Shown here one piece after another: positions 11,328-33,036 of a DNA stretch of 34,966 bases. Each line of letters starts with the position of its first letter. Position 1 is the stretch's first letter. This stretch comes from Desulfobacteraceae bacterium (GTDB lineage Bacteria > Desulfobacterota > DSM-4660 > Desulfatiglandales > Desulfatiglandaceae): positions 1-34,966 of the forward strand of contig JADHXI010000015.1 of the NCBI GenBank assembly GCA_016783065.1, given 5' to 3'. Both the position numbers and the translations under genes were made by a program. The notes below the pieces were generated by a model. That model saw only the letters and a program-made list of their open reading frames with translations. It made no database searches and was not told where the DNA came from.

Positions 11328-11720
11328 TTACTTCAAGCAGTTTTGAATCACCTCAAGAAGTTCTTCAGGTTCCGGCGGCTTTTCAATATAGCCCTCGGGA
11401 TCCGGAATATTCTCTCCCTTATATTCATTCAGAACCCTCTGGGAATGGAAGAAGGTCTTCTTGGAGAGCGCAGAGAGCATTATGACGGGGATATCCTTTA
11501 GTTCCTGATCGATCTTTAGATCCCGGTACAGGCCTATCCCGCTCTCTTTCGGCATCATTACATCCAATATGATCAGAGATGGCCTATTCTTGCGCGCGAC
11601 CTCCAATCCCTCTTTTCCATCTACCGCAGAGAGGGGCTTATATCCGTTTGTTTCCAGCAGGGTCGATACATAAATTCTCATATCCAGTTCATCATCCACA
11701 ACCAGGATCCTCTTACGCAA
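11328..11720 (-). CDS. Single-domain response regulator (receiver paralogue A)
   Basis: The 130-residue protein is only a CheY-like receiver. The acidic pair is in LVVDDELDMR, the phospho-acceptor Asp in LIILDVMMPKESG, the conserved Ser in IMLSAL and the Lys in YIEKPPEPEE. It has no output domain, so it should act by protein contact or as a phosphate shuttle. A segment KKTFFHSQ after the Ser is shared with the receiver at 28956-29354. It follows the receiver-kinase at 11786-12946, and the two genes with the heme kinase form a minus-strand unit. Confidence 0.92.
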   Translation of the reverse strand: MRKRILVVDDELDMRIYVSTLLETNGYKPLSAVDGKEGLEVARKNRPSLIILDVMMPKESGIGLYRDLKIDQELKDIPVIMLSALSKKTFFHSQRVLNEYKGENIPDPEGYIEKPPEPEELLEVIQNCLK

Positions 11721-12952: not shown

Positions 12953-15232
12953 TCACTTCGGAACAGGAAATTTGATAATAAACCTACTGCCCTCACCTTC
13001 CCGGGTCTCAACATCAACGGTTCCGTCATAATTCTGCACAATGCCGTAGCTGATGGAAAGTCCCAATCCGGTGCCCTTGCCCACTTCCTTGGTGGTGAAA
13101 AAGGGTTCAAAAACCTTGTCCAGGTTAGATTTCGAGATGCCGGCCCCCGTATCCTCTATCTCTATGATAACGAAACCGTCCAGGAGGCTGGTTCTGAGAA
13201 CTATCCGCTTCTTTCCCTTGTCACCACCCTGTTCCCACTTCTCTTCGATGGCATCCCTCGCATTGATCAGCAAATTGACAAAGACCTGCTCCAACCGATT
13301 CGAATCAGCCATGATGGGTGGGAGATCTTTTGCCAGATCCCTCACCACCTCTATCTCGCGAAGCTTTAATTGCTGAATGAAGATATCAAGAGACCTGTCC
13401 AGTGCCTCGTTGACCTGCACCTCCTCCTTTTTGACGTCTGATTTACGGCCGAATTCCCTCATATGGTTTATAATTCGTGAGGCCCGATCCACATGGCTAT
13501 CCATCTCTTGAGCCATTGTGTTGAGTATCTCATCCTTGATGGGTTCGTTAGCCTCGGCCTTTCTCCTCAGATAACTACTTGCGGTCTTGATAACGGAAAG
13601 GGGCTGATTCAACTCGTGGGCGACCCCGGTGGCCATTTCCCCGAGGGTCGCCATCTTACTGGCCTGTATGAGCTGCTGTTCTGCCATGAGCCTCGTGGTA
13701 ATATCGCTTGTGGTGACCAACAGGACCTTCCGTCCCAGGTAGTCAGAAGCCGAAACCCGGATGTTGACGTAAATGACATTGCCATCCTTTCGGGTCTGTC
13801 TCACCTGATTCAGGATATCAAACCCCTTTATCTTAGCTTCATACTGTTCCCGTTCCTCTTCTTCTTCAAAGAGATTGAGGAAGGATGTCATAAACAGCGA
13901 CTCCTTGTCGAATCCGTAGACAGTGGCCACAGCGTCATTAGAGTCCAGAATCTCAAGGGTCTTTTCATCAAGGACAAAAATCGGGTTGGGCATGGTATTG
14001 AAGATGGTTCGATATTTCTCCTCCGACTTCTCCACCTCCCATTCCAACCGCTTCATCTCAGTCACGTCAAGACACATCTCCATTGCCGCCGTAATCTCGC
14101 CTTTGGAATCCCTGATCGGGGAAGTCCTCACCAGCCAGAAAGAACGGGTGCCATCTTTGTTGATACCTTCTTCTTCACTATGATGCGACTTACCGTCTTC
14201 AAAGGTCTTCAAGACGGGACATATCTCGCATCTCTCAGAACGGCCTTTATAGGCCTTAAAGCAGTAATCCCCGAGTCTCGGGGCAAATGTCTCGGCAAAC
14301 TCGCGGTTGTATCTGATGAGTCTCAAATTCCTGTCCTGAACGGTGATATAACATGGGGCAATCTCAAAGATACGCTGGTATTCCTCCTTTTGTTTGTTTA
14401 GCTCCTCCTGTTTCTTCCCGATCTCTCTGCCCATTTGATCTATTGCGAGGGCCAACTGGCCTATTTCATCACCCCTGGCAATGTCTACGGAATAGTCATA
14501 TTCTCCATTGCCGATATGTCTGGTTCCCGCGATCAGTTTTTTGATGGGTCGATTTACAAATCTCATCAGAAAGAATCCCATAATGGCGGAAGTTCCCAAA
14601 AAAACAAGCAGGGCAAAGCCAACAATCCCCCTTTCATAGGAGGCGATGGAGCTGTCGGTATCCTTTAGGGAGACCTCCACATCCAGCCCGCCCAAAACCT
14701 TTTTCCCTTCAGGATGAACGTGGCACGCATTGGTTGAACAACCCGGTTCGTTATAGATGGGGCTGATGATCCCCAAGTGTCGGTCTCCATCGGGTGCAAC
14801 AAAGACACGCGTCCTTCCGGCCAGACCCACAGATCCCAAAGGAGGTTTTGTTCTATGGCAGATATCGCATGCCTCCGCCTTTATGTTTGTTACCTGATCT
14901 ATCTCTTCGGCCCTGTTGGAAAATTTGATTTGCCCCTTTTTATTGTAGATCCGAATACTTTTTATCTCTTTCTGCTGCGCGATATTATTGATGATCTGGT
15001 TTATATCGTCCCTTGAATTTAGCTTCATGGCGAAGTGGGTGCCCAGTCTTATGGTATTTCCCAACCTGTCAGCCCCCACCACGATGTTTTTGACCGTCCT
15101 TTCCTTAAACTGTTTGATGTTGTAGTAGGCCCAGGCGGATATAACCAGCAACAGGGTCAATCCGACATAGATAATCAGCCGGAAACCGAGGCTGCGGAAG
15201 ATATTCCGAAATCGAGAGGGTTTATTGGGCAT
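12953..15232 (-). CDS. Membrane histidine kinase with periplasmic diheme-type sensor domain
   Basis: The 759-residue protein (numbered from the ATG at 15232) has a transmembrane helix at 18-36, a periplasmic domain to about 202, a second helix at 203-222, HAMP (224-274), two PAS domains (about 284-394 and 404-514), His539 in VAHELNQP, and an ATPase domain ending near the C-terminus. The periplasmic domain has a heme c motif CDICH (122-126) and a longer CSTNACH (165-171, CX4CH). Covalent heme there could sense redox state, NO, CO or O2. The first PAS has a Cys cluster (CFKAYKGRSERCEICP). I prefer the ATG at 15232, which has GGAAGGGAAG upstream, over an in-frame ATG at 15280 without a clear ribosome site. 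Confidence 0.9.
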   Translation of the reverse strand: MPNKPSRFRNIFRSLGFRLIIYVGLTLLLVISAWAYYNIKQFKERTVKNIVVGADRLGNTIRLGTHFAMKLNSRDDINQIINNIAQQKEIKSIRIYNKKGQIKFSNRAEEIDQVTNIKAEACDICHRTKPPLGSVGLAGRTRVFVAPDGDRHLGIISPIYNEPGCSTNACHVHPEGKKVLGGLDVEVSLKDTDSSIASYERGIVGFALLVFLGTSAIMGFFLMRFVNRPIKKLIAGTRHIGNGEYDYSVDIARGDEIGQLALAIDQMGREIGKKQEELNKQKEEYQRIFEIAPCYITVQDRNLRLIRYNREFAETFAPRLGDYCFKAYKGRSERCEICPVLKTFEDGKSHHSEEEGINKDGTRSFWLVRTSPIRDSKGEITAAMEMCLDVTEMKRLEWEVEKSEEKYRTIFNTMPNPIFVLDEKTLEILDSNDAVATVYGFDKESLFMTSFLNLFEEEEEREQYEAKIKGFDILNQVRQTRKDGNVIYVNIRVSASDYLGRKVLLVTTSDITTRLMAEQQLIQASKMATLGEMATGVAHELNQPLSVIKTASSYLRRKAEANEPIKDEILNTMAQEMDSHVDRASRIINHMREFGRKSDVKKEEVQVNEALDRSLDIFIQQLKLREIEVVRDLAKDLPPIMADSNRLEQVFVNLLINARDAIEEKWEQGGDKGKKRIVLRTSLLDGFVIIEIEDTGAGISKSNLDKVFEPFFTTKEVGKGTGLGLSISYGIVQNYDGTVDVETREGEGSRFIIKFPVPK

Positions 15233-15280
15233 GAGACTTCCCTTCCAGGGAACTTCTGACCTGGCTTTACCTTTCCTCAT

Positions 15281-15594: not shown

Positions 15595-17217
15595 ATGGGA
15601 CCTGATAAAATGAGTACGGAACATTGGAAAGTGCTGATCATTGATGATGAAGAAGGTATCCGCAAGGTGATGTCTATCACCCTTTCGGATGCGGGCTATG
15701 AAGTACTGACTGCCGCTGACGGGGAGAGCGGGCTAAAATTGAGTGATGAAAAATCTCCGCAGATCATTCTCACAGATATTCGTATGCCCGGAATGGACGG
15801 TCTTGAGGTGCTCAAACAAATCAAAAAGGGGAATAGCAACAAAGAGGTAATCGTGGTGACGGCCTTTGGTGAAATGGAACTTGCTGTCCGCGCCTTACAG
15901 CTCGATGCCTCCGACTTCATCACCAAACCGATCCATGATGAGGCCCTATTTGTGGCCCTGGAGCGTGCCAAAGGGAGGTATAAAACCCGCAAAGAAATCG
16001 AGGATTATACCGAGATCTTGGAAGAAAGATGGATGGATACGGCCGAGGAACTGGCCAGGGCCTTTGATTTTCAGAATAACCTGATCGAGAGCTCCATTGA
16101 CGGGATTATGGCCTGGAAAAGAGACGGGAGAGTGATCACTTTTAACAAGGCCCTGCAACATATGTTGGGTTATTTCAAAGACGAAGTGATTGGAAAGATG
16201 TCATTTGACCAGTTTTTTCCCCCAGGGGGAGCCAAAGGGCTAAAGGAGAGCTTATATTCCGAGGCCTATGGAGGAAAAAATCAGCTCTTTCTCTTTGAGA
16301 CCAATCTCATTTCCAAGACTCAAAAAAAGCTCCCGGTCCAGCTTTCCGCACGGGTCCTCTTTGACGAGGGCAAAGAGATCGGAATCGTGGGATTTTTCAG
16401 GGACCTGAGAGAAATCAGGAGGCTTGAACAGCAGTTTACTGATCAGACACAGCTCCTTCACCAGGACAAAATGATCTCAATGGGCAGGCTGGCCGCAAGC
16501 ATGGTCCATGAGATCAACAACCCGCTTGCGGGTATCCTGAATTATATTCGGCTCATGATAAAGATCATAAAACGGGACACCCTGGAACCTGAAAAAATCA
16601 AGAAATTTCCACGTTACCTGGGTCTTGTGGAGAGTGAGACCAGCCGTTGCTCCAAAATCGTTTCCAACCTCCTCGCCTTCTCACGGAAGTCTGAAATGAA
16701 ATTTGCTGAAATCGATATGGCTGATCTCCTGCAAAGATGTGTTATGCTGAGCCAGCACAAACTCACCCTTCAGAACATTCAGATAAAGACCGAGTCTGAT
16801 CCTGCTGTTCCACCTATATGGGGCGACTTTAATCAGATCCAGCAATGCATCATAAATCTCATCTTCAATGCCATCGATGCAATGCCCGAGGGTGGTACCC
16901 TTGCCATAAGCAGTTCCTTTGAGGCAGGGGAAGGGGTTGTCCAGATAAAGGTCGAAGACACCGGATGCGGCATTGCCAAGGAAGACATCCCGTATATCTT
17001 CGACCGTTTTTTCACTACCAAAGAGGAGGGAAAAGGGATCGGACTTGGGCTTTCAACGGTTCAGGGCGTCATTGACCGGCATAAGGGCAGCATTGATGTC
17101 AGAAGTAAGCAGCGGGAAGGGACCACTGTCACCATCAAACTTCCTATCCCCACTCCTGATCCAGATCGACATCATCCCGTTCATACTGGGCATCTCTCAG
17201 TTTATTGGCTGCTTTGA
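15595..17217 (+). CDS. Receiver-PAS-histidine kinase hybrid
   Basis: The 540-residue soluble protein has an N-terminal receiver (acidic pair 17-18, phospho-Asp61 in LTDIRMPGMDG, Thr89, Lys111), a linker helix, a PAS domain (about 158-275), a dimerisation domain with His305 (SMVHEINNPLAG), and an ATPase domain with NLIFNAIDAMP and GIGLGLS. Its receiver resembles that of the kinase at 11786-12946, suggesting duplication. The last 17 residues (after IPTPDPD) go beyond the normal ATPase end and the gene overlaps the stop of the convergent selenoprotein gene by 74 bp. Start is uncertain: ATG at 15595 or at 15610 five codons later. It lacks an adjacent DNA-binding partner. Confidence 0.9.
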   Translation: MGPDKMSTEHWKVLIIDDEEGIRKVMSITLSDAGYEVLTAADGESGLKLSDEKSPQIILTDIRMPGMDGLEVLKQIKKGNSNKEVIVVTAFGEMELAVRALQLDASDFITKPIHDEALFVALERAKGRYKTRKEIEDYTEILEERWMDTAEELARAFDFQNNLIESSIDGIMAWKRDGRVITFNKALQHMLGYFKDEVIGKMSFDQFFPPGGAKGLKESLYSEAYGGKNQLFLFETNLISKTQKKLPVQLSARVLFDEGKEIGIVGFFRDLREIRRLEQQFTDQTQLLHQDKMISMGRLAASMVHEINNPLAGILNYIRLMIKIIKRDTLEPEKIKKFPRYLGLVESETSRCSKIVSNLLAFSRKSEMKFAEIDMADLLQRCVMLSQHKLTLQNIQIKTESDPAVPPIWGDFNQIQQCIINLIFNAIDAMPEGGTLAISSSFEAGEGVVQIKVEDTGCGIAKEDIPYIFDRFFTTKEEGKGIGLGLSTVQGVIDRHKGSIDVRSKQREGTTVTIKLPIPTPDPDRHHPVHTGHLSVYWLL

Positions 17218-18445
17218 TCTCTTCCTCGCTCCAGGGCTCCACAATCAGGGAATCCGCCACAAGTTCCCACAGGTATTTCACCTCTACCCCCAGGCCGTAT
17301 TCCTTGTCCAGGGACTTCATGATCTGGTCCCGGCAGTTGTGACAGGGGGCAACGACCATCTTGGCGCCCGTGTCCTTTATCTGTTTTGCCTTTACACGGC
17401 CGTAAAAGATCCTCTCCTGTTCATAGGGCATGGCCCAGGCACCGCCCCCGGCACCACAGCAGAAGTTGTTCATCTTGGCGGGATACATCTCCACATAGTT
17501 CTCGCAGCACTGCTGGGTGATCCACCGGGGCTCCTCGAAATAGCCGTGACCAAAGGTCTTAAACCCCTTGCGACCGTAGTTGCAGGGATCATGCATCGTG
17601 GTAAGCTCCTCATGGATGGATTTATCCAGCTTTATCCGCCCCGTCTCTATGTACTCCTTCAAAAGATCATGAACCGATATGACGTTGTATTTCTCAAAGA
17701 CCTCGGGAAACCAATTCTGCAGACCAAGCCTGGTCGCAAAGTAGGCGTGCCCTCATTCGGGCAACAGCAGCGTCTTACACTCCAATCGCTCCAGGTGCTC
17801 CACAATCCTCCCGACAAAGATCTTCATGGACTCATCATCACCGGAAAAAAGACCCCAGTTGACCCCCTCCCAGTTCTCAGAGGGCACGGTCCAGTCCTCT
17901 TTGGCCGCATAGAAAATGCGCCACCAGAACTTCATGTCATCAGGCTCCCCAAAGGGTTCCTTGGAATTGACGGTCAACAGGATATTGGCGCCCTTTTTGT
18001 CCACAGGGACATAAAACCCCGGAAACCCCTCATCCTCGTCCATCTCTTTGGCCAGATCCGCCAGTAGGAAGAGAAAATCATCCCTGGGTATGCCCAGGTT
18101 ATTTCCCCTCTCGAGATCCATCACCACACCCTTGTGGATGGGACCGGGCACCTTGTCCCTCTCACGAAGACCCCTTGCCTTGCGCATCATCTTGAGGATC
18201 TCAACCCCCTGGGGACAGGCATATTCACACCGGCCGCACAGGGTGCAGATCCAGGGGAATCGCGAATCAACCAATTCCTGATCAAGCCCAAGGGCCGCCA
18301 TACGCACGGCCTTCCTGGGGTCCATGCCATCCACACCAGTTACTGGACAGCCCCCAGCACAGGTCCCGCATGTAAAACATACATCGGCCCACTCAGGAGC
18401 AACCCGCAGTTTGCTCTCTTTTCGGTTTATGGCTAATGCCTCCAT
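17144..18445 (-). CDS. HdrD/TmcB-like iron-sulfur protein with in-frame TGA (predicted selenocysteine)
   Basis: Read through the TGA at 17753-17755, this is one 433-residue protein with selenocysteine at 231 (LLLPE-Sec-GHAYFATR). The N-terminal half has two [4Fe-4S] motifs, CFTCGTCAGGCP and CTLCGRCEYACP. The C-terminal half has a CCG domain: DPCNYG, NFCCGAGGG and APCHNC, the signature of heterodisulfide reductase-type catalytic subunits. Both halves are in the same frame, 30 codons lie between TGA and the next Met, and the paralogue at 33037-34299 has TGA at the same place. It is the last gene of the hdr cluster. The ATG at 18445 has GGAGGAGGT six bases upstream, so the TTG at 18460 is rejected. 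The substrate may be a disulfide such as the DsrC trisulfide; this is inference. Confidence 0.9.
17719..17737 (-). promoter_or_regulatory. Candidate bacterial SECIS hairpin
   Basis: On the minus strand GCGACCAGGCTTGGTCTGC folds into a 5-bp perfect stem (GACCA/TGGTC) extended by two pairs past a U bulge, with loop GGCT. The loop G is 23 nt after the TGA at 17755-17753, within the range known for bSECIS elements, and a G at the start of the loop is the known SelB contact feature. Confidence 0.7.
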
Positions 18446-18511: not shown

Positions 18512-19381
18512 TTATATGCTTAGCCTCTGTTTAAAGGAATCTGCCAGGGCAAGATTGAGGTTTAGCTTTAGTTCTTTTTTGGAGAGACCCAACGCTAGGC
18601 CAATGAGTTGGGGGAGATAGAGCACCGGGATGCCCAAATCCTCACCCCTGGCCTTGGAAACTGGTTCCTGGAATGCCTCCAGGTTCATCTCGCACATGGG
18701 ACAGACCGTAACAATGCAGTCAGCCCCCTGGGCGGCCTTGAGGAGTGCTCCGGTCAGTTCCATGGCCACATCCTTTTTGGTCGTCATCAAGGCGGCTCCA
18801 CAACACTTGGCACCCATTTCCCAGGGATGTACGTCAGCCCCAAGTGCCTTTATCAGCGGTTCGAGGGATCGGGGCTGCTCGTGATCATCATAGGTGGCGT
18901 AAGGCCTGAGTGCCTGGCACCCATAATAAACGGCCACCCCTAAACCCGCAAGGTTTTTCTTCACCAGGGGCGCAATGGCCTCGGGATCGATGTCATTAAC
19001 CATGACATCAAGCAAATGACGCACCTTTACACCGCCATTGTACGCCAGGCCTTCCTCTTCAAGGGCCTCATTTATCTTGCCCATGAGTGTTCCGTCCTGT
19101 TGAACGTGGTCCTCCACCTTCCTCAGGTTCAGGTAACAGGCGCTGCACGGGATCATGATATCGGCATCCATATCCATCCCTTCGGCCAGGGCCAGGTTAC
19201 GGGCAGCCAGGACCATCGAGAGAAGATAACTGATTGCATCAGCCGCGCTGGCCCCGCAACAGGTCCAATCATTCAACTCCGTCAGTTCCGCCCCCAGTGC
19301 CCCCATTGCAGCCCGGGTGGATGCATCATATTCAAGCGCCGTACCCTCCAGCGAACACCCCGGATAGTAGATATATTTCAT
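18512..19381 (-). CDS. hdrB: Heterodisulfide reductase subunit B
   Basis: The 289-residue protein has two complete CCG modules: Cys9, Cys41-Cys42, Cys79 and Cys82, then Cys155, Cys193-Cys194, Cys227 and Cys230. In characterised HdrB these hold two non-cubane [4Fe-4S] clusters that cleave a disulfide. No selenocysteine or missing ligand is seen, unlike the next gene. Its ATG shares one base with the hdrC stop (TAATG), so the two are translationally coupled. It acts in the cytoplasm with HdrC and the HdrA-like flavoprotein just upstream. The physiological disulfide is unknown; sulfate reducers lack the methanogen CoM-CoB pair. Confidence 0.94.
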   Translation of the reverse strand: MKYIYYPGCSLEGTALEYDASTRAAMGALGAELTELNDWTCCGASAADAISYLLSMVLAARNLALAEGMDMDADIMIPCSACYLNLRKVEDHVQQDGTLMGKINEALEEEGLAYNGGVKVRHLLDVMVNDIDPEAIAPLVKKNLAGLGVAVYYGCQALRPYATYDDHEQPRSLEPLIKALGADVHPWEMGAKCCGAALMTTKKDVAMELTGALLKAAQGADCIVTVCPMCEMNLEAFQEPVSKARGEDLGIPVLYLPQLIGLALGLSKKELKLNLNLALADSFKQRLSI

Positions 19382-19983
19382 TATGATCTAGCCTCCAGTT
19401 CTTCAACCTTGCGGAAAAGCTTGTCGAACCTTCCCTCGAAATATTTCACCTTACCCTTGTCATCCTTTATGGGGACCAGTATGGGCAACTGTAAGGAAAT
19501 CTTCCCTTTTCTCATGAGTTTCAATCCCAGTGAGGTAAACCCCAGGGGCAGGAAAGGGTCTTTTAGGGAGAAGAAATAGCGGTTTATAAATTCAATCTCC
19601 CTTACCCGACCATAACGCTCAACGGTCTTGATAAAGGCATCGTAGAAATTGCTGCTTTGCTTGTGTTTCTTGATTCCCTGGTCCGCTGCCAACCGCTTGA
19701 GAGCACCCATGGTCTCGGTCAGTTTGAGCCCCCGGGGGCACCGCAGGGTGCAGTAATAGCAGGCAGAGCACAGATAGAAGGTCTTACTGTTGAAGATCTC
19801 CTCTGTCTCACCCAACTGGGCCAATCGCCACAAATGCCGCGGTGTGAGGTCCATTGCAAATGCATTGGCACAAGAACCGCTACAGGTCCCGCACTGCATG
19901 CATGCCCGGACTTTTTCCTGCACCGACTCCAAAAGATCGGATTCGCCAACGGGTATGCCAAGATCAGTCTGTTTTCGGGTCAT
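19381..19983 (-). CDS. hdrC: Heterodisulfide reductase subunit C
   Basis: The 200-residue protein has two [4Fe-4S] ferredoxin motifs: Cys28, Cys31, Cys34, Cys38 (CMQCGTCSGSC) and Cys72, Cys75, Cys78, Cys82 (CSACYYCTLRC). It passes electrons between HdrA and HdrB. The N-terminus and the about 100-residue tail are normal for bacterial HdrC. It lies 31 bp after the stop of the tandem HdrA gene and overlaps hdrB by one base. Order A-C-B with tight spacing supports a single complex. Confidence 0.94.
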   Translation of the reverse strand: MTRKQTDLGIPVGESDLLESVQEKVRACMQCGTCSGSCANAFAMDLTPRHLWRLAQLGETEEIFNSKTFYLCSACYYCTLRCPRGLKLTETMGALKRLAADQGIKKHKQSSNFYDAFIKTVERYGRVREIEFINRYFFSLKDPFLPLGFTSLGLKLMRKGKISLQLPILVPIKDDKGKVKYFEGRFDKLFRKVEELEARS

Positions 19984-20014: not shown

Positions 20015-23000
20015 CTACACAACATTCTCCAGTGCCGCATCGATCACCTCAAACACCTGCTGATCCCTGTATCCCCGAAGCACTGAAGCACTGTTTGGAC
20101 AGACAGCGGCACATGAGCCGCACCCCTGGCACATGAGTTCATTTACCACAATCATCTCTTCGTCTTCGTCATGGTGACGAGCCTCATAGGGACAGAAGGC
20201 CACGCATCGCTCGCACAGGGCGCAGAGGCTATGACGCACCTCGGCCACAACACTCCCTGAGGCCAGCCTATCACTGTTCAAGATCCTCAAGGCACGCTGG
20301 GCTGCAGCTTCGGCCATGGCAACTGACTCGGCTATGGAGCGGGGAGAATGGGCCAGGCCGCACATGAATACCCCTTCCTTGATAAAATCCACAGGGCGCC
20401 ACTTGGATTCAGCCTCTTGATAAAAGCCGTCCTGGTTGACCTCCACACCGAATTGTTCCGCCACTTCTCTCCCCGCGTCAGGAACTACGCCGGTACTAAG
20501 GACCAACAGGTCCGGTTCCAGCAACCATTCCCTCCCCAGGATCGGATCAAGGGCGGAAAGCCTTGGCCGGCCGTCTTCCACACTCACCTCCGGCTTTTGG
20601 CCCACATCGTAGGGTACGAAAATTACCCCGGCCTTCCGGGCCTCGCTGTAATAGGTCTCCATGAAACCGTAAGACATCATGTCCCTGTAAAATATATAGA
20701 TATCGGTCTCAGGGTTTTGCTTCTTGAAAAACAGGGCATTCTTGAGGGCGGATTGACAGCATATCCTACTGCAATAGTTGCGCGGCTCTTCTCTGGAGTC
20801 CACACACTGTATCATGGCCACGGTTTTTAAATTGGCTGGCTCCACCCCCCCCTCTGCAAGCTTCTCTTCAAGATCGTGTTGGGTGAGGATCGCCTCGCTC
20901 TCTCCGTATGAATAACTCTCTGTCTTTGCCTCTATACCGCCGGTGGCCAGGACCGTCACCCCGTGATCCAGGGTTTCACCCTGCCCATCTTCCTTCTCGA
21001 TGGAGGTTGAGAAATTGCCCACGTGCCCCTGTGAATAAATAATCTTTGCACCCGTATGCGTCCGGATGAGGGGATGTTTTTCCACCTTGGATATGCTCTC
21101 CTCCAGGAGTTCCTGGGGAGAGTGTCCTTCGATGGTCCTGTGGAGGGTTCTTGCATTGCCACCCAGTTCCGCTGCCTTTTCAACCAGCGTCACCTCAAAG
21201 CCGTGATCCGCGATGGCCAGGCCGGCCGTCATCCCCGCAATGCCGCCGCCCACCACCAAGGCCTTTTGAACAATCCTGGAAGTTGCCACCGGTAACGGAT
21301 CCATGCCCTTCAATTTCCCTATGCCCATGGAGAGCACCGCTCGAACCTCCTGATGTACTGCCTCTTTTTCCGTGTCCCTGCCGGGGAAGGCAAGGGTGCG
21401 GATGTCCACCACCTCCATTAACTCCGGATTCAGTTCAGCGGACCGGCCCAGTTCCCTCAGTTTCCTGGCATAGACATAGGGCATACAGGATGCGATCAAG
21501 ATGCGGTTTGCCGAATTGCCCTGAAGGGTCTCTTTAAGCTCATCCCACCCCTCATGAGTGCAGAGGCTGTCAATGGCGTGGACCCCAGTGACGCTGCCCT
21601 GTGCCTCAAGCCAGGAGGATATTTCATCAAAATCGGCTGACTCCGATAAGGTGCCCCCACACTTGCACAGTACAGCCAAGACCTGAGGCATTTCCCGTGA
21701 GACATCCCGAAAGCCGGTCTCCGGTGAAACTTCTTCTGCAAGCCCACCCCCCTTGGAATGGATCAACCTTGAGGCCTCGAGGGAGGCTGAACTTGCCTGG
21801 ATGACCGATTCGGAGATGTCCCGCAGGCCGGAAAATGACCCTCCCACCAGGACACCCTCGCTGCTGGTGCGTGAAAGGGAAAAACCCTCCACCTGGCAGA
21901 ACCCCCAGGGATTTAACACCACCCCGCACGTTTCCGCCACTTCCTCGGCACCTGTCGGGGGTCTCTGACCCGCAGCCAGGACAACCAGGTCAAAATCCTC
22001 TTCATGCTTTGTACCGGTGGTGTCCGCGTAAGCTACCCTCAGCGTCCCGTCATCCTTTCCCGTGGTTTCAACGGAATGTACGCGGCTTCTCTCAAAGTGA
22101 ACCCCGGATTCCTTTTCCGCCCGATCCCGGTACCGCTGAAAATCCTTCCCAAAGGTACGCATGTCCATGTAGAAAATGGTCGTGTCAATCTGTCCTTCGC
22201 TCTTTTCTTTTGCCAGAAGCGCCTCTTTGATAGCAAACATGCAGCAGGCCGATGAACAAAAGTCTGCGTCTGCCTGTTGGTCCCGAGATCCCACGCACTG
22301 AAACCAGGCGATTTTCTTGACCTCTTTCCCGTCACTGGGTCTCAAAATTTTTCCTTGATTCGGGCCTGTGCCGCTGACCATCCGTTCAAACTGCAGGCTC
22401 GTCACCACATTGGGAAACAGGCCGTAACCATAAGTATCCTTGCCTGTGGAGGGATCGTAGGAATCAAACCCCCCTGCCAGGATCACAGATCCGACTTCCA
22501 TTTCCTTGACGCCGGCACTTTGAATATCGTGGTAGAGGTTGACGATTAAGGGGATGAGGTTATCCGGATCAAAGGGTTTCATCAGGTAGTCATGGGCCCC
22601 TATTTTCATGGCCTCCACCGCGGTCTCAACCGTGGCGTACGCGGTCATCATCACCACCGGCAGGTCGGGGCGGATCTCCTTGGCACGCTTGAGCACTTCC
22701 ACGCCATCCATGCCCGGCATCTTGATATCCAGAAGCTTCAAATGAAAATGCTCTTTGGACATCTTTTCGAGGGCCTCTGTCCCCGATTCTGCCATGTCCA
22801 CATCGAAGCCTTCATCCAGAAGCCATTCCTTGAGGGAATCGCGAACGATCAATTCATCATCCACCACAAGGATACGGAATTTTTTGCGTTCCTCTTTTCC
22901 GAAATCAATGGCATGGGTGGGGCAGATTTTTTCGCACTCACCGCAATGTGTGCAGGCGTCCAGGTCCACAACATACGCATTCGGGATGTTATGGGGAACC

Positions 23001-23446
23001 GGCAGGTATATTGCCTTTCGATCTGTCAGCCCCCCATTAAACGGGTCCGGGGCTTCCACCGGGCAGACCCTGGCGCATTCGCCACAACCGATACACCGTT
23101 CCTGGTCGACGATTGAAGACTTTTGACGCAGCGTGACCTGAAATTTTCCCGGCTCACCCTCCATGGCGACCAACTCGGTAGAGAGCATTATGTCAATATT
23201 TTCGTGAAACAGACCCTTGCGAAGGCAATACTGGGAGGAAGAATCTCTTTCCACCAGGGGAAGCATCTTGCACATTCCACAGTGATCGGTGGGAAACTGA
23301 TAATCCAGCTGCGTAAGGACGCCCCCCAGGTGAGGCTCCTTATCAATGAGCGTCACCTGGTAGCCTTGTTCTGCCATATCAAGGGCTGATCGAATACCGC
23401 TGATTCCGCTTCCCACTACCAACGTCGAGCCGATCTTTTTCTTCAT
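20015..23446 (-). CDS. hdrA: Tandem HdrA-like flavoprotein with embedded receiver domain
   Basis: The 1143-residue protein contains two HdrA-like units. Unit 1: FAD motif VVGSGISG (11-17), cluster ligands around Cys56 and Cys59, ferredoxin motifs CIGCGECARVCP (118-) and CTHCGECEKICP (165-), a receiver domain (190-310), then the rest of the HdrA flavin fold. Unit 2: an HdrA N-terminal cysteine set (CKCGG 594-598, Cys629, SCMPYVYARKLRE), FAD motif GGGIAG (733-738), and C-terminal motifs CALCERC (1075-) and CQGCGSC (1106-). The receiver has Asp196/Asp197, phospho-Asp240 (LLDIKMPGMDG), Thr268 and Lys290, all catalytic residues. HdrA is the flavin that bifurcates electrons in Hdr complexes. It lies before hdrC and hdrB. 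Receiver insertion in HdrA is unusual; the reading frame is intact, so it is not an assembly join within a broken ORF. Confidence 0.92.
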   Translation of the reverse strand: MKKKIGSTLVVGSGISGIRSALDMAEQGYQVTLIDKEPHLGGVLTQLDYQFPTDHCGMCKMLPLVERDSSSQYCLRKGLFHENIDIMLSTELVAMEGEPGKFQVTLRQKSSIVDQERCIGCGECARVCPVEAPDPFNGGLTDRKAIYLPVPHNIPNAYVVDLDACTHCGECEKICPTHAIDFGKEERKKFRILVVDDELIVRDSLKEWLLDEGFDVDMAESGTEALEKMSKEHFHLKLLDIKMPGMDGVEVLKRAKEIRPDLPVVMMTAYATVETAVEAMKIGAHDYLMKPFDPDNLIPLIVNLYHDIQSAGVKEMEVGSVILAGGFDSYDPSTGKDTYGYGLFPNVVTSLQFERMVSGTGPNQGKILRPSDGKEVKKIAWFQCVGSRDQQADADFCSSACCMFAIKEALLAKEKSEGQIDTTIFYMDMRTFGKDFQRYRDRAEKESGVHFERSRVHSVETTGKDDGTLRVAYADTTGTKHEEDFDLVVLAAGQRPPTGAEEVAETCGVVLNPWGFCQVEGFSLSRTSSEGVLVGGSFSGLRDISESVIQASSASLEASRLIHSKGGGLAEEVSPETGFRDVSREMPQVLAVLCKCGGTLSESADFDEISSWLEAQGSVTGVHAIDSLCTHEGWDELKETLQGNSANRILIASCMPYVYARKLRELGRSAELNPELMEVVDIRTLAFPGRDTEKEAVHQEVRAVLSMGIGKLKGMDPLPVATSRIVQKALVVGGGIAGMTAGLAIADHGFEVTLVEKAAELGGNARTLHRTIEGHSPQELLEESISKVEKHPLIRTHTGAKIIYSQGHVGNFSTSIEKEDGQGETLDHGVTVLATGGIEAKTESYSYGESEAILTQHDLEEKLAEGGVEPANLKTVAMIQCVDSREEPRNYCSRICCQSALKNALFFKKQNPETDIYIFYRDMMSYGFMETYYSEARKAGVIFVPYDVGQKPEVSVEDGRPRLSALDPILGREWLLEPDLLVLSTGVVPDAGREVAEQFGVEVNQDGFYQEAESKWRPVDFIKEGVFMCGLAHSPRSIAESVAMAEAAAQRALRILNSDRLASGSVVAEVRHSLCALCERCVAFCPYEARHHDEDEEMIVVNELMCQGCGSCAAVCPNSASVLRGYRDQQVFEVIDAALENVV

Positions 23447-23521: not shown

Positions 23522-24667
23522 CTAATCTTTTCCGCCAGTGACTTCGCTATACTCTGATTCCTTAAATACGGACAGGGGCGGCTCCTCCTCCAGGCTCCGG
23601 CCGGCCTCATAATCAAAGGCCCTCTGCGTGTAACTGGCGATCGTCCGGAATATTTCCATGACCGGGATATCATTGGGGCAGGCGTTGGAACACTGGCCGC
23701 AGCCGATGCAGGCCGTGCTCATGTGGGCCAACCGGGTCATGTGGTAAAAGACCGTGTCCGTGGGCATCTTGATAAGTCCCTTTCGTTTGGCCCACTTGAG
23801 GTATTGGGAAGGCTCGTGGTCAAAGACATCGGTCACGAATACACACTCCTTGCAGTAACAGACCGGGCAGGCCACACGGCAGTTGTAACAGTTGACACAA
23901 TTGCCAAGATAGGCCGTGAGTTTGTTAAGGTCCGAAGTTGCCTCGCTGGTTTCCTCAAACATCTTATCCCGATAGGCAACGCGGTCTGAAACCAGATCCT
24001 CTATGGCCTTTTTGCGGCCTTCGGGCTCCTCGCCCTCCGGCAGCCCCAGTTTTTCCAGGAGGTCCTCACCCGCCCCTGTCATGGCCTTTAACAAAAGGTG
24101 ATCCTTGGTATCTACACCCAGCATCCCGATCTGCAGGTCGGCACTTTCCGATACCGGGTGCTCACAGGCCTTGCACGCCGGAGAAATATCAATGTCCTCC
24201 CATGCAGTACCCTTTCCGGAGACAACGTTTTCGTAAAACCGCAGAGAGGCATCAGCGCCGTCATCACCTGCAAAGCGAGTATAGTCGACATTGCCGTAAG
24301 TACCGTAACAGTCCATACTCACCAGTATCACCTCATCCATGCTCCCCTGTTTCAGCTTTACCAATTCTATGAACGCCTTGATCTCACAAGGTCGCAATAC
24401 CACCGCTATCCGGCCGCCCACGGGTCTACGTGTGAGCCTGGAAACCATCTTGGCCGCATTCATAGGGAATACCGGCGCTAAGGGATCGGCAGTGTTGCTT
24501 TTCTCCGGATCGGTCACCAATGTGGGCATCACCACATTTTTCATGGGAAGATGCTGGGGAACCAAAAGGGCCTCCATATCCCCATCCTCAAGGAGTGCCT
24601 TAAAAAAGCCCCGTAAGGCAGTGAGGAGGTTTTGTTCTTTGACATCTATTTTCGCTGTTTTAGCCAT
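23522..24667 (-). CDS. FrhB/FdhB-like iron-sulfur flavoprotein
   Basis: The 381-residue protein resembles coenzyme F420-reducing hydrogenase or formate dehydrogenase beta subunits as found in Hdr clusters. Cysteine sets are LRPCEIKAFIELVKLKQ (Cys94), Cys120, SPACKACEHP (Cys165, Cys168), a dense run CVNCYNCRVACPVCYC (from Cys257), and CIGCGQCSNACP (from Cys320). These suggest several [4Fe-4S] clusters and possibly a flavin. It sits between mvhD and the tandem hdrA, so it probably feeds or drains electrons at HdrA. No NAD-binding glycine motif is evident; the partner could be F420, ferredoxin or a dehydrogenase. The start at 24667 fits the family N-terminus. Confidence 0.82.
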   Translation of the reverse strand: MAKTAKIDVKEQNLLTALRGFFKALLEDGDMEALLVPQHLPMKNVVMPTLVTDPEKSNTADPLAPVFPMNAAKMVSRLTRRPVGGRIAVVLRPCEIKAFIELVKLKQGSMDEVILVSMDCYGTYGNVDYTRFAGDDGADASLRFYENVVSGKGTAWEDIDISPACKACEHPVSESADLQIGMLGVDTKDHLLLKAMTGAGEDLLEKLGLPEGEEPEGRKKAIEDLVSDRVAYRDKMFEETSEATSDLNKLTAYLGNCVNCYNCRVACPVCYCKECVFVTDVFDHEPSQYLKWAKRKGLIKMPTDTVFYHMTRLAHMSTACIGCGQCSNACPNDIPVMEIFRTIASYTQRAFDYEAGRSLEEEPPLSVFKESEYSEVTGGKD

Positions 24668-24769: not shown

Positions 24770-24789
24770 GCAATCCAAAATCCAAAATC
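24770..24789. repeat. Short intergenic repeat, copy 2
   Basis: Identical 20-mer to 23499-23518, overlapping the mvhD stop region at its 3' end on the minus strand. Same position relative to a gene end as the first copy. Confidence 0.7.
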
Positions 24790-25210
24790 ACAACACCATC
24801 TGTTCCCTGACGTCATTTGGGCCGAGTTCCTTGATCTCGGTCACCATCTCCTTGATGGTTTTGGCAAAATCCACGCCCTCGCTGGCACCGATCCAGGTCA
24901 GCTTCAACCTACGTTCGTCAAAACCGAACCGGGGAAGGATCTCTTTTAGCAATTTGACACGCCGGCGGGCCTTGTAATTCCCGTTGATGTAGTGGCAGTC
25001 CCCGGGGTGACAGCCACTGATGAGTATGGCGTCCGCGCCTTCTAACAGGGCCTTGATCACATACTTGGGATCCACCATCCCGGTGCACATCATCCGGATC
25101 ATTCGCACATTAGGAGGATAGGTCAACCTGGAGGTTCCTGCAAGATCAGCGGCAGTATAAGTGCACCAGTTACACACAAAAGCAATGATTGTCGGTTCGT
25201 ACTCTCCCAT
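24788..25210 (-). CDS. mvhD: MvhD/FlxD-type hydrogenase delta subunit
   Basis: The 140-residue protein has the MvhD pattern: FVCNWCTYTAADLAG (Cys13, Cys16), MMCTGMVDPKY (Cys42) and ISGCHPGDCHY (Cys67, Cys72). In methanogen and bacterial complexes MvhD carries a [2Fe-2S] cluster and joins an electron input module to HdrA. The length is normal. GGAGG lies six bases upstream of the ATG at 25210. It sits between the HdrA-GltD fusion and the FrhB/FdhB-like gene. No hydrogenase large subunit is in the window, so the input is probably NAD(P)H or another dehydrogenase instead of H2. Confidence 0.94.
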   Translation of the reverse strand: MGEYEPTIIAFVCNWCTYTAADLAGTSRLTYPPNVRMIRMMCTGMVDPKYVIKALLEGADAILISGCHPGDCHYINGNYKARRRVKLLKEILPRFGFDERRLKLTWIGASEGVDFAKTIKEMVTEIKELGPNDVREQMVL

Positions 25211-25334: not shown

Positions 25335-28300
25335 CTAAGCCCCTACCGACGCAATGGCATCCATGATACCATGCAATTCGGCAAAAACCTGCCTCTCGTT
25401 GAAGTGCCTCACCTGCGCGGCACCGCTGGGGCAAAAGCCGGAGCAACTTCCACATCCTTTACATAGGGCCTCGTTGACAACCGAGACTTTCCTTCGTTCA
25501 TCAAAATCAATAGCCGAGTAAGCGCAAAGCTCGATACAGGTCTGGCAGCCGGCACATATATTCGGGTCAATCCAGGAAATTGTGGATGAAACCTCCACCT
25601 TTCCACGGGTAGCCAACTGCAACGCCTTGGCTGCAGCCCCTGATGCCTGAGCAACGGCATCCGGGATGTCCTTTGGTCCCTGACAAGCCCCCGCTATGAA
25701 CACACCGTCGGTAGCAGTATTTAAGGGCCCTAATTTGGGGTGTTCCTCTAAGAAAAAACCGTCCGCTCCCAGGCTGATCCCAAAAACCCTGCCCACCTCT
25801 GCAGCATCATCACGGGCCTCCATGGCAGCACACAGGATCACCATATCCACCGGTATGCGATACCGTCTGCCCACGAGGGTATCTTCGCCAATGACCACAA
25901 GCTTACCTTCTTCCTCGGGGGTAGTGGCCTCACTGGTAATTTCGCCAGGCTTGCCCCTTATAAAGATAATCCCTTCCTCCTGGCACCTCCGGTAGAACTC
26001 CTCATAACCCTTCCCAAAACAGCGCATGTCTATATAGTAATCATAGATCTTTGCGTGATGCCCCACCTTATCCTTGATCAAGTGGCCATACTTCAAGGCA
26101 TACATACAACAAACTCTTGAGCAATACTCATGATAGTTTTCGTCACGGCTGCCAATACAGTGGACAATAGCCACGCTCTCCGGCGGGCTCGTGAATTCTC
26201 CCTTTTCGTTTCTCAAAAGGATCTGGCCGCTGGTGGGCCCGGTAGCATTGTTGAGACGCTCAAACTCGAGGCTGGTAAGCACATTGGGGTAAGTGCCGTA
26301 GCCGAACTGTTTCATGGGGGTCGGGTCCAAGAGATCGTATCCGGTTGCTATGACTATACTACCAGCCTTTACCTCTATCTCTTCATCTTTCATTTTGTGA
26401 TCAATGGCCTTGGCCTCGCAGGCATTAACACAGGCCATACATTCTGAACAAAGCCCGCAGTTAAGGCAGCGCCAGGCCTCCCTTTGTGCTTCATCTTCTG
26501 AAAACCCAAGATCCACCTCTTGGAAGGAAGCAGAACTTTCCTTGGCATCCCGAAACCTGGGATGGGCCCGGACTGCCTTATCAAGGTCTTCAGGGATTTC
26601 ATTCCAATCCCGGCCCGGGGGCTCCTGGGACTTCACCTCCTCAGCATAGAGGTCAAGGTCATCCCCGTTGATAAATCGGTGGATCGCCTCTACGGCCTTA
26701 TGACCGGCGGCCACCGCTTCGATGACCGTAGCAGGACCGGTCACTCCATCACCAGCGGCAAAAACCTGTGGGATGTCTGTCTGCATAGTAAGGGGATTTA
26801 CTTCCAATGTGCCCCATGTAGAAACCTCCAGACCTGCCTCATCTACGGCCCAGTCCGCCTGGGGCCGCTGGCCTATGGCCGGAATCACTGCGTCACATTC
26901 AATCACGAACTCTGAGCCTTCAACCGGTATGGGGCGCCTTCGTCCACTTGCGTCCGGTGATCCTAATTCGGTCTTAATGCACTCCAGGCCTGTGACCTTC
27001 CCGTCGGCACCTAAGATGGCCACCGGTGCTGTCAGGTAATGGATCTTCACCTCCTCAGCCAAGGCCCCTTCGATCTCCTCCTCGTAGGCGGGCATCTCCT
27101 CACGGCTCCGGCGATAAACAACAGTGACATCCTTACAACCTAACCGCAGTGCTATGCGAACTGCATCAATGGCCACGTTGCCGCCGCCGATTACCACCGC
27201 CCGTTTTCCAGGGTGTTTGCGTTCTCCTAAATTGGTCTCTCTGAGGAAGTCTACTGCATCCAGCACACCTTCAAGCTCTTCCTCCCCTGGGACATTTACC
27301 TTAATACTGCCGTGAGCACCCGTTCCTAAGAAAACGGCCTTAAAACCCTCCTCTTCCAGGTCCTTAAGGGTAAAATCACTGCCCAGGGTTTGTCCGGTCC
27401 GGGTCTCGATTCCCAATCGCAAGATGTAGTTTATCTCATTGTCCAACACCTCTGGGGGTAAACGGTAATCCGGGATTCCAACCCGCAGCATCCCGCCAAG
27501 GACCGGAAGCGATTCAAAGATGGTAATCTGGTAGCCCTTAAGACCGAGATAGTATGCCGCAGTCAGCCCGGCCGGACCTGAACCGATTACGGCAACCTTT
27601 TCTGACCGCTTTTCAATCTCTGGCAGCGGTAATTCGTTCAAATCCACCTGATCAGCGGCAAAGCGCTTTAAATCCCTGATGCCAATGGCCTCATCCACTT
27701 CTAATCTCCGGCATTGAGCCTCACACGCATGAGGGCAAACTCGGCCCAACACACCGGGCAAAGGCAACCGCTCTAAAATCAATTGAACAGCCTCCCGGTA
27801 CTTGCCCTGGGCAATGAGTTGTACATAACCCTGCACATTAACGCCCGCCGGACAGGTTATAACACAAGGTGCCCTGTCCATTTTCTCAATGGCAAAGGTA
27901 ATGGGCACGGCCTGAGGAAAAGCCCTGTAAGCTGCCTTTCTGGTCCCGAGGCCTTCGTCCCACTCACTCAGGCTTGTAACTGGGCAGACATCGGCGCATT
28001 CGCCGCAGCCAGTACATGCATCTTCCCTTACGTATCTGGATTTGCGACGGATTTTTACGTCATAATTACCGATGAACCCCGATACCTCTTCCACCTCGCT
28101 GTAAGTGAGCAACTCGATGTTTGATTCTTGTACAACCGACACCATTTTCGGGGTCCCGATACAGGCAGCACAATCCAGGGTGGGAAATGTCTTGTCGAAC
28201 TGGAGCATGTGCCCGCCAATGGTCGGTTGCCTTTCCACCAAATAAACCTTATGGCCTGCACTTGCGATGTCTAAAGATGCCTGCATACCGGTAATGCCAC

Positions 28301-28748
28301 CCCCAACAACCAGGACATCAGGATGGATGCTCACTTCCCGGGCCTCAAGACTCTGATGAAAGCTGACCCGGTTTATGGCTGCCGCTGCCAAGATCTTTGC
28401 CTTTCTGGTGGCCTCATCCGGATCCTCTGTCACCCACGAAACCTGTTCGCGCACAGAGGCCATCTGGAAAAGGTAGGGATTGATCCCTCCCCGTTGACAG
28501 GCCCCCTGAAAGGTCTTCTCGTGTAACCTGGGGGTGCAGGAAGCCACGACGACCCGGTTGAGATCCAGTTCCCTTATGTCCTTTTCGATCATCTCCTGGC
28601 CGGGGTCTGAACACATGAATTTATAATCCCTGGCAACCACCACATTCTTCAGGCCCCGGACGAATTCGGTCACCTCTTCGACGCGGACTTTTCCGGCGAT
28701 ATTGACCCCGCAATGACAGATAAAAAACCCTATCCTCTTTGACATCAT
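25335..28748 (-). CDS. hdrA: HdrA with inserted GltD/NfnB-type NAD(P)H-binding flavoprotein domain
   Basis: The 1137-residue protein starts as HdrA: CHCGVNI (11-17), FMCSDPG, SCTPRLH (70-76), FAD motif GGGITG (149-154), LDCAACIGTPKM (191-202) and ferredoxin CTGCGECADVCP (245-). A GltD/NfnB-like module follows (about 290-700) with CP-rich start, FAD motif GSGPAG (390-395 region) and NAD(P) motif GGGNVA (521-526). A second ferredoxin (CLNCGLCSECMAC, from 761) leads back to HdrA, ending in two [4Fe-4S] motifs. The module should let the protein exchange hydride with NAD(P)H. It is the first gene of the cluster. Positions 28748 and 28745 both offer ATG starts. No in-frame TGA is seen. Confidence 0.92.
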   Translation of the reverse strand: MMSKRIGFFICHCGVNIAGKVRVEEVTEFVRGLKNVVVARDYKFMCSDPGQEMIEKDIRELDLNRVVVASCTPRLHEKTFQGACQRGGINPYLFQMASVREQVSWVTEDPDEATRKAKILAAAAINRVSFHQSLEAREVSIHPDVLVVGGGITGMQASLDIASAGHKVYLVERQPTIGGHMLQFDKTFPTLDCAACIGTPKMVSVVQESNIELLTYSEVEEVSGFIGNYDVKIRRKSRYVREDACTGCGECADVCPVTSLSEWDEGLGTRKAAYRAFPQAVPITFAIEKMDRAPCVITCPAGVNVQGYVQLIAQGKYREAVQLILERLPLPGVLGRVCPHACEAQCRRLEVDEAIGIRDLKRFAADQVDLNELPLPEIEKRSEKVAVIGSGPAGLTAAYYLGLKGYQITIFESLPVLGGMLRVGIPDYRLPPEVLDNEINYILRLGIETRTGQTLGSDFTLKDLEEEGFKAVFLGTGAHGSIKVNVPGEEELEGVLDAVDFLRETNLGERKHPGKRAVVIGGGNVAIDAVRIALRLGCKDVTVVYRRSREEMPAYEEEIEGALAEEVKIHYLTAPVAILGADGKVTGLECIKTELGSPDASGRRRPIPVEGSEFVIECDAVIPAIGQRPQADWAVDEAGLEVSTWGTLEVNPLTMQTDIPQVFAAGDGVTGPATVIEAVAAGHKAVEAIHRFINGDDLDLYAEEVKSQEPPGRDWNEIPEDLDKAVRAHPRFRDAKESSASFQEVDLGFSEDEAQREAWRCLNCGLCSECMACVNACEAKAIDHKMKDEEIEVKAGSIVIATGYDLLDPTPMKQFGYGTYPNVLTSLEFERLNNATGPTSGQILLRNEKGEFTSPPESVAIVHCIGSRDENYHEYCSRVCCMYALKYGHLIKDKVGHHAKIYDYYIDMRCFGKGYEEFYRRCQEEGIIFIRGKPGEITSEATTPEEEGKLVVIGEDTLVGRRYRIPVDMVILCAAMEARDDAAEVGRVFGISLGADGFFLEEHPKLGPLNTATDGVFIAGACQGPKDIPDAVAQASGAAAKALQLATRGKVEVSSTISWIDPNICAGCQTCIELCAYSAIDFDERRKVSVVNEALCKGCGSCSGFCPSGAAQVRHFNERQVFAELHGIMDAIASVGA

Positions 28749-28955: not shown

Positions 28956-29354
28956 TCACGTGTTTAATAACCCTTGAACGCTCTGAAGAAGTTCCTCCGC
29001 TTCCGGCGGCTTCTCGATGTACGCATCGGGTTCACGCACGGATTGACCCGTATAGGCATCCAGCACGCCTTGAGAGTGGAAAAAGGTTTTCTTGGCGATC
29101 CCGGACAGCATAATTACTGGGATATCCTTGAGTTCGCTATCCACCCTCAAATCGCGGTACATCTGAATGCCGGCCTCTTTTGGCATCATTACATCCAGGA
29201 CAATGAGATCCGGCTTGATCTGCCTTGCCTTGCGGATCCCTTCCAAACCGTCTGAGGCCACCACGGGTTTGTATCCGGTTGTCTCCAGCAGGGTGGAAAG
29301 AAAGGTCCTCATATCGAGTTCATCGTCTACTATCAGGATCTTTTTCTTTTTCAT
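28956..29354 (-). CDS. Single-domain response regulator (receiver paralogue B)
   Basis: The 132-residue receiver has LIVDDELDMRTF, the phospho-Asp in LIVLDVMMPKEAG, Ser in IMLSGI and Lys in YIEKPPEAEE. It shares KKTFFHSQ with the receiver at 11328-11720. It has no output domain. The start is the ATG at 29354, with GGAG seven bases upstream; an in-frame ATG at 29414 lies before the predicted sigma-54 transcript start and adds an unrelated tail. It precedes the hdr cluster on the same strand, separated by a MITE-like element. Confidence 0.92.
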   Translation of the reverse strand: MKKKKILIVDDELDMRTFLSTLLETTGYKPVVASDGLEGIRKARQIKPDLIVLDVMMPKEAGIQMYRDLRVDSELKDIPVIMLSGIAKKTFFHSQGVLDAYTGQSVREPDAYIEKPPEAEELLQSVQGLLNT

Positions 29355-29409
29355 TGAATTACTCCGCGCCTTTTGAGGCCATCCCTGTTTCTTCGTCACG
29401 GACTCCCTA

Positions 29410-29426
29410 AGCATTTATCGTGCCAA
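29410..29426 (-). promoter_or_regulatory. Sigma-54 promoter for the receiver gene
   Basis: The minus-strand sequence TTGGCACGATAAATGCT has the GG-N10-GC core of the -24/-12 consensus and matches TTGGCAC exactly. Transcription would begin near 29400, 45 nt before the ATG at 29354. Confidence 0.7.
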
Positions 29427-33013: not shown

Positions 33014-33036
33014 CAAGAGTGTGGGGGAGTTTGATT

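Follow-up and report, generated by a model that had tools for sequence, protein, structure and literature searches.

The stretch of DNA that we analysed (34,966 nucleotides, hereafter the window) carries an Hdr gene cluster on its reverse strand, accompanied by genes of receivers, histidine kinases and a sigma54 activator (Table 1). The cluster follows the conserved gene order hdrL(HdrA-NfnB)-flpD-frhB-hdrA(Rec)-hdrC-hdrB, and its hdrA gene encodes an HdrA chain in which a receiver domain is embedded.

Table 1. Coordinates of the hdrA gene with an embedded receiver, its parts and the surrounding genes in the window
Feature	Position	Strand	Basis
PAS-sigma54 activator upstream of Hdr cluster	29779..31536	(-)	Pfam
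Single-domain receiver upstream of Hdr cluster	28956..29414	(-)	Pfam, synteny; paralogue at 11328-11720, also (-)
HdrL-type HdrA with NfnB/GltD-like insertion, first Hdr gene of cluster	25335..28748	(-)	Pfam, NCBIfam, synteny
FlpD/MvhD electron adaptor	24788..25210	(-)	PF02662 (E 8e-55); synteny
FrhB/FdhB-like iron-sulfur protein	23522..24667	(-)	PF04432; synteny
Tandem double HdrA with embedded receiver, 1143 aa	20015..23446	(-)	single uninterrupted ORF; Pfam Response_reg, Fer4, FAD domains
HdrA module 1, first FAD segment, aa 1-109	23120..23446	(-)	alignment to 5odc_A
Inserted ferredoxin domain, aa 110-186	22889..23119	(-)	two 4Fe-4S motifs; aligns to 5odc_A as far as residue 313
CheY/NtrC-type receiver domain, aa 190-310	22517..22879	(-)	PF00072; residues D196/D197, D240, T268, Y287, K290
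Codon of predicted phospho-acceptor Asp240	22727..22729	(-)	end of model strand 236-240; D in 32/32 intact homologues
HdrA module 1, return FAD segment, aa 312-585, opening with strand 312-318	21692..22513	(-)	aligns to 5odc_A from residue 315
HdrA module 2, aa 586-1125	20072..21691	(-)	Pfam, 5odc_A alignment, AlphaFold2
HdrC	19381..19983	(-)	Pfam, NCBIfam, synteny
HdrB with two CCG domains	18512..19381	(-)	PF02754; TIGR03288 below cut-off
HdrD/HmcF-like protein, in-frame TGA 17753-17755 (probable selenocysteine)	17144..18445	(-)	tRNA-Sec and SelB in own genome
RecHK540, receiver-PAS-HisKA-HATPase hybrid kinase	15595..17217	(+)	convergent with Hdr cluster
HK775, candidate phospho-donor, membrane histidine kinase	12953..15280	(-)	HAMP, two PAS, HisKA, HATPase (Pfam); CDICH and CSTNACH motifs
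RecHK386, receiver-kinase hybrid adjoining HK775	11786..12946	(-)	Pfam, synteny; often in same cluster elsewhere

The HdrD/HmcF-like gene, with which the Hdr cluster ends, probably encodes a selenoprotein; its TGA stands in the context LLLPE-U-GHAY, and ordinary ORF calling shortens the product to an HdrC-like piece. Another in-frame TGA (33769-33771) is present in an HmcF/TmcB-like gene on the forward strand (33019-34299). The homologue L047 has cysteine at this position (TECGHAYRALRFEAP), and with the codon read as selenocysteine the HmcF score rises to 450 bits, from 272 otherwise; tRNA-Sec and SelB are encoded in the same genome. A TmcC/HmcE-like membrane subunit (32348-33013, forward strand) adjoins this gene as well as a Usp gene, and the TmcC/HmcE-like and HmcF/TmcB-like genes represent a redox module of the membrane in the vicinity of the Hdr cluster, for which no cytochrome subunit was seen within the window. 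The two paralogous single-domain receivers lie at opposite ends of the region occupied by the Hdr and kinase genes.

Tandem HdrA architecture and the site of the receiver

The protein had been described in an earlier note, made from the DNA sequence alone, as an HdrA flavoprotein. The assignment to HdrA held, but Pfam and the alignment to 5odc_A revealed a tandem double HdrA with two FAD modules in place of a plain single one. The best PDB match of the 1143-residue chain was HdrA 5odc_A (E 2.4e-127), which aligned in four stretches (aa 585-763 with chain residues 2-180, aa 14-185 with 152-313, aa 312-512 with 315-513, and aa 959-1137 with 467-648), and Foldseek ranks 1-12 for the modelled protein were all HdrA or HdrA-like chains (TMt up to 0.92). 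None of the NCBIfam HdrA models NF041778, NF041891 and NF040770 reached its curated cut-off (570, 566 and 707 bits versus 1400, 1300 and 1100, respectively). The hallmarks of HdrA were all present: a GxGxxG FAD domain, an inserted ferredoxin domain, C-terminal ferredoxins, an N-terminal-type domain and the HdrA fold.

Module 2 consists of an N-terminal-type domain (aa 586-725), an FAD domain (aa 726-1065) and C-terminal ferredoxins (aa 1066-1125). By alignment to 5odc_A, its FAD domain has neither an inserted ferredoxin domain nor an equivalent of Cys197 of the crystallised HdrA, whose counterpart in module 1 is Cys59. As the N-terminal-type domain precedes module 2 only, and the Cys197 equivalent is found in module 1 only, the two modules are complementary. 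All eight 4Fe-4S cysteines of the ferredoxin domain (C118/C121/C124/C128 and C165/C168/C171/C175) were invariant across 22 fused homologues, as were the GxGxxG glycines of module 1 (G12/G14/G17) and module 2 (G733/G735/G738).

The FAD domain, the inserted ferredoxin domain, the N-terminal-type domain and the C-terminal ferredoxins are shared with HdrA of HdrABC-MvhAGD, Fdh-Hdr and Elp-Hdr (PDB 5ODC, 7BKB and 8RVU), as are the companions HdrB, HdrC and MvhD/FlpD; the window protein differs from these HdrA chains in having two HdrA modules per chain and a receiver, and in scoring below the NCBIfam HdrA cut-offs. Based on this homology, the Hdr complex encoded here is probably of the bifurcating type, and bifurcation itself, with ferredoxin and a high-potential acceptor reduced in a coupled reaction, would be expected. 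Tandem HdrA fusions, in which the Cys197 and the N-terminal domain are likewise distributed over two complementary modules of one chain, have been described as HdrA3/HdrA4 of ANME archaea and HdrA of the Moorella MetFV-HdrABC-MvhD complex (PMC9012536). However, as compared with ANME HdrA3/4, the order of modules in the window protein is reversed, and a receiver is added: the alignment to 5odc_A places the Cys197 module first, whereas the ANME-type order has the module with the N-terminal domain first and the Cys197 module second (PMC9012536).

The claim that residues 190-310 form a complete receiver with an acidic pair, Asp240, Thr268 and Lys290 was borne out: Pfam Response_reg (PF00072) matched aa 192-299 with an E-value of 8.2e-32 (110 bits versus a cut-off of 30), and all the residues are as stated, with Y287 as the counterpart of CheY Tyr106. 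The coordinates proposed earlier (22516-22877) located the receiver correctly, except for its ends, which were off by one or two bases. Also as claimed, the receiver follows the two 4Fe-4S motifs (C118-C128 and C165-C175) and precedes GSVILAGG (aa 318-325). Its flanks align with residues 313 and 315 of the crystallised HdrA (5ODC), and the segment inserted between these equivalent positions, receiver included, is 126 residues long. Thus, the receiver sits where the chain exits the inserted ferredoxin domain, and the insertion point corresponds to the return of the chain from this domain (the low-potential exit) to the FAD domain.

An AlphaFold2 model of the whole protein, built with 31 homologues (pLDDT 85.2, pTM 0.83), had been suggested in the earlier note as a check, and we read it for topology. 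The strands (aa 191-195, 215-219, 236-240, 264-268 and 286-289) and helices (aa 199-211, 222-231, 248-258, 270-282 and 294-309) of the receiver alternate in the order of CheY, giving a canonical (beta-alpha)5 fold, and helix alpha5 (aa 294-309) runs directly into the HdrA strand 312-318.

In the HdrL-type protein of the same cluster, an inserted NfnB/GltD-like module separates the two cluster motifs of the inserted ferredoxin domain. As this insertion adjoins that of the receiver, the inserted ferredoxin region accepts foreign domains repeatedly. The term HdrL was used for an HdrA/glutamate synthase fusion of Desulfobacterium autotrophicum (PMC2702500), and HdrL and the HdrA-NfnB fusions HdrA9-11 of ANME-1 (PMC9012536) resemble the window HdrA in that a foreign domain lies within or beside the inserted ferredoxin domain. 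In these fusions, however, a flavin/NAD(P)H redox module has entered between the cluster motifs, whereas the window HdrA has a signalling domain after them.

Distribution, constraint and decay of the fusion

Using a query that spanned both receiver/HdrA junctions, we found the fusion in 14/85 genomes of the class (junction at 60-100% identity), 15/395 genomes sampled across the phylum, 14/36 genomes of one family (f66) and 42/199 genomes of another (f45), these samples overlapping slightly. Named metagenome-assembled genomes (MAGs) with the fusion bear the labels Desulfobacterales, Desulfobacteraceae, Syntrophobacteraceae, Deltaproteobacteria and Pseudodesulfovibrio. One further protein (G043), encoded on a short contig, is nearly identical to the window protein and is not to be regarded as an independent case. 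The same insertion, which the earlier note had proposed to look for in other HdrA proteins, thus occurs across many Desulfobacterota genomes. Absence of the fusion from all close relatives, together with signs of an assembly chimera, would have spoken against it; instead, the junction is shared by independently assembled genomes, and the many independent relatives with the same junction rule out such a chimera.

Four homologues (L095, L097, L099 and L137, the last labelled Planctomycetota) have no receiver, and in this sister clade the site is exactly empty (e.g., CPTHAIDLEAKDR-DETVTVGAVVIS). The stand-alone receivers of L095 are not a split form of the fused one, as the window and L050 have both stand-alone and fused receivers.

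In 32/32 homologues with intact receivers D196, D197, D240, T268, Y287 and K290 were invariant. The mean pairwise identity of these proteins was 0.69 in the receiver, 0.55 in the FAD segments and 0.35 in the N-terminal-type domain; in every one of the 496 pairs the receiver exceeded the remainder of the protein in identity, and the distances of the two parts correlated (r 0.77). The opposite was seen in five proteins with decayed receivers, each of which had lost at least two catalytic residues (5/5): the receiver was their least conserved part (0.42), less conserved than the rest of the protein in 10/10 pairs. Moreover, in 18 further f45 receivers the second acidic residue was absent from all and the threonine from nearly all. 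Because the Pseudodesulfovibrio sequence L092 groups with f45, this family probably represents the Desulfovibrionaceae; in the Desulfovibrionaceae-like genomes the catalytic set was broken in every receiver inspected. Catalytic residues were also lost in G054 (family f1), and in G482 the acidic pair is D/E, with the Asp, Thr and Lys retained. This pattern shows that most lineages are under strong selection to keep the receiver phosphorylatable, and that one family has lost this selection. Since f45 lacks residues needed for phosphorylation, the idea of control by phosphorylation fails for some members.

For the trees, the receiver was left out and the HdrA columns alone were used. The subfamily, with its receiver-less members, was separated from receiver-less outgroups with a support of 100/100; the receiver-less four formed a clade (UFBoot 98-100), as did the intact 32 (83-95) and the decayed five (100). 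The monophyly of all fused proteins was weakly supported (UFBoot 71 and 66), so that the tree does not prove a single gain, although the receivers group together: among 112 receivers, those of HdrA formed one clade (support 0.83) near NtrC-type regulators. One acquisition by a receiver-less ancestor is the simplest reading of the sequences; alternatively, the receiver may have been lost later in the receiver-less clade. The fusion is real, old and conserved.

Two Usp-receiver-Usp proteins (L070:13707-15020 and L086:13076-14395), whose receiver is ~60% identical to that of HdrA, nest within the HdrA-receiver clade. The L070 gene is located directly downstream of hdrB and the L086 gene near Hdr genes, as if one receiver had been copied between the enzyme and a universal stress protein.

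Linked kinases and the proposed control of electron transfer

In many lineages HK775 and RecHK386 are encoded close downstream of hdrB on the same strand; in the window they also follow the Hdr genes, with RecHK540 in the opposite orientation in between. HK775 was found within ~12 kb of the junction in 23/33 genomes with intact receivers (22/33 by coordinates, and G078 by a kinase fragment), the ten without linkage including some at contig ends, and in 0/42 f45 genomes; the catalytic residues themselves were inspected in part of these genomes, and the contrast concerns mainly one clade and is phylogenetically non-independent. No HK775 was found in G054 and G482. As 32/42 f45 genomes keep a homologue elsewhere, the kinase probably has other targets too; homologues were also present in 3/14 sampled genomes without the fusion. 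An initial impression that HK775 is lost genome-wide alongside receiver decay was overturned, as 31/39 further f45 genomes have a homologue, and it is the local linkage alone that follows receiver integrity.

In roughly half of the linked HK775 proteins, two hydrophobic segments enclose an extracytoplasmic-type segment in which CxxCH is accompanied by a second motif, C-x(3-4)-CH; this suggests covalent haem. In the window HK775, CDICH and CSTNACH occupy this position, and the protein may be an extracytoplasmic haem-c redox sensor. The haem-type input is swapped in other lineages for cytoplasmic PAS domains, which are the only input of the remaining linked kinases. Haem motifs are therefore not a universal feature of the kinase.

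The fusion and its exact site, the constraint on the phosphorylation residues, the kinase linkage and the decay in one family can all be read from the sequences. They partly support the idea of the earlier note that the receiver would let a histidine kinase control flavin-based electron transfer post-translationally, and with moderate confidence we regard kinase-controlled post-translational tuning of HdrA as the most likely mechanism. In this mechanism, a soluble Hdr complex (HdrL-FlpD-FrhB-HdrA-HdrC-HdrB) has as its bifurcating-type flavoprotein an HdrA that would have acquired an NtrC-type receiver. Asp240 would accept the phosphate, with the co-encoded HK775, the hybrid kinase RecHK386 or both as the likeliest donors, and phosphorylation would reshape the alpha4-beta5-alpha5 face of the receiver. 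As alpha5 is continuous with the next HdrA strand, we propose that this change would displace either the inserted ferredoxin domain itself or its docking surface, and that ferredoxin reduction or oxidation in the low-potential branch would thereby be tuned against the HdrCB branch. Phosphorylation at Asp240 by HK775 or RecHK386 is what we infer from conservation and linkage, and gating of the low-potential exit through the continuity of alpha5 with the strand is what the topology of the model would allow.

The flow of information could also be reversed, with HdrA as a redox reporter: the state of its flavin or ferredoxin would alter phosphorylation or dephosphorylation of the receiver, which would serve the kinases and the sigma54 activator as a sink for phosphate or as a feedback element, and metabolism would in this way inform signalling. 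The receiver does adjoin several kinases, stand-alone receivers and a PAS-sigma54 activator, and constrained catalytic residues are predicted here too; however, HdrA itself is the sole output domain, and a fusion in cis to an enzyme reads most simply as control of that enzyme, which makes this reversal rather unlikely. We also regard as unlikely, and somewhat more doubtful, that the receiver is a docking or dimerisation module for which phosphorylation is beside the point. That the decayed family retains the domain despite the loss of catalytic residues indicates that it can persist without phosphorylation, but every catalytic residue is invariant in the intact homologues, and the receiver-less sister clade persists without the domain at all. 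Phospho-dependent partner binding is a common output of receivers, RssB among them. The receiver could accordingly govern assembly or turnover by recruiting HdrCB, ferredoxin or a protease adaptor, instead of gating electrons, and its insertion on the ferredoxin-docking domain (5odc_A alignment; PMC12350162) would suit such a role; apart from Hdr subunits and signalling genes, however, the cluster has no conserved gene for a dedicated partner, and we consider this role improbable. Finally, an assembly chimera or a neutral passenger is hardly credible, since no support for either was found, although the window's genome is a draft of 208 contigs, and since the identical junction recurs in many independent assemblies, single-contig genomes among them, with strong purifying selection on the receiver.

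Kinase-controlled tuning of HdrA remains the reading that we prefer. To our knowledge, response regulators composed of a receiver and thioredoxin reductase have no ferredoxin domains and no Hdr partners, and their receiver is terminal. In contrast, the receiver of the window protein is internal, between the ferredoxin and FAD segments of HdrA, and both alignment and model place the protein outside this class, in which a receiver is joined to a stand-alone thioredoxin reductase. Nevertheless, these regulators, which also combine a receiver and a thioredoxin-reductase-like flavoprotein in one chain, represent the closest known principle (PMC5847659). Locus VIII of D. autotrophicum HRM2 (hdrL-hdrA4-hdrBC) is similar in having hdrL, hdrA, hdrBC and an FdhB, and the figure of hdr loci of this strain also shows response regulator and kinase genes; in the paper's description, by which we compared the two, a receiver within HdrA4 is not mentioned (PMC2702500). 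As the earlier note had supposed, we found no published description of a receiver in HdrA, or of this mode of control for Hdr complexes, in 5.39 million open-access papers, as distinct from automatic database annotations. We class the window HdrA as a response regulator whose output is enzymatic, here within a multi-cluster flavoprotein of the bifurcating type.

More tentatively, a conserved family of bifurcating complexes might be under direct two-component control, in which a sensor kinase, with two extracytoplasmic haem-c-like motifs in many lineages, would phosphorylate a receiver built into the hinge at HdrA's low-potential exit and so set the balance between ferredoxin and disulfide branches; the switch-less Desulfovibrionaceae-like family would then be a natural control. 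The series of proteins with no receiver, with an intact receiver and a linked kinase, and with a decayed receiver without a linked kinase makes this idea testable by comparison and by single-residue mutants. The avoidance of wasteful bifurcation under acceptor scarcity has so far been debated as conformational gating within the complex. If the proposal is true, placing a phosphorylatable domain at the low-potential exit would give bifurcating enzymes a post-translational control of their own, tying a sensor kinase directly to the energy conservation of anaerobes. In many sulfate-reducer-type bacteria, the flavoprotein chain contains a signalling switch beside its ferredoxin exit, through which a sensor kinase could in principle set electron splitting.
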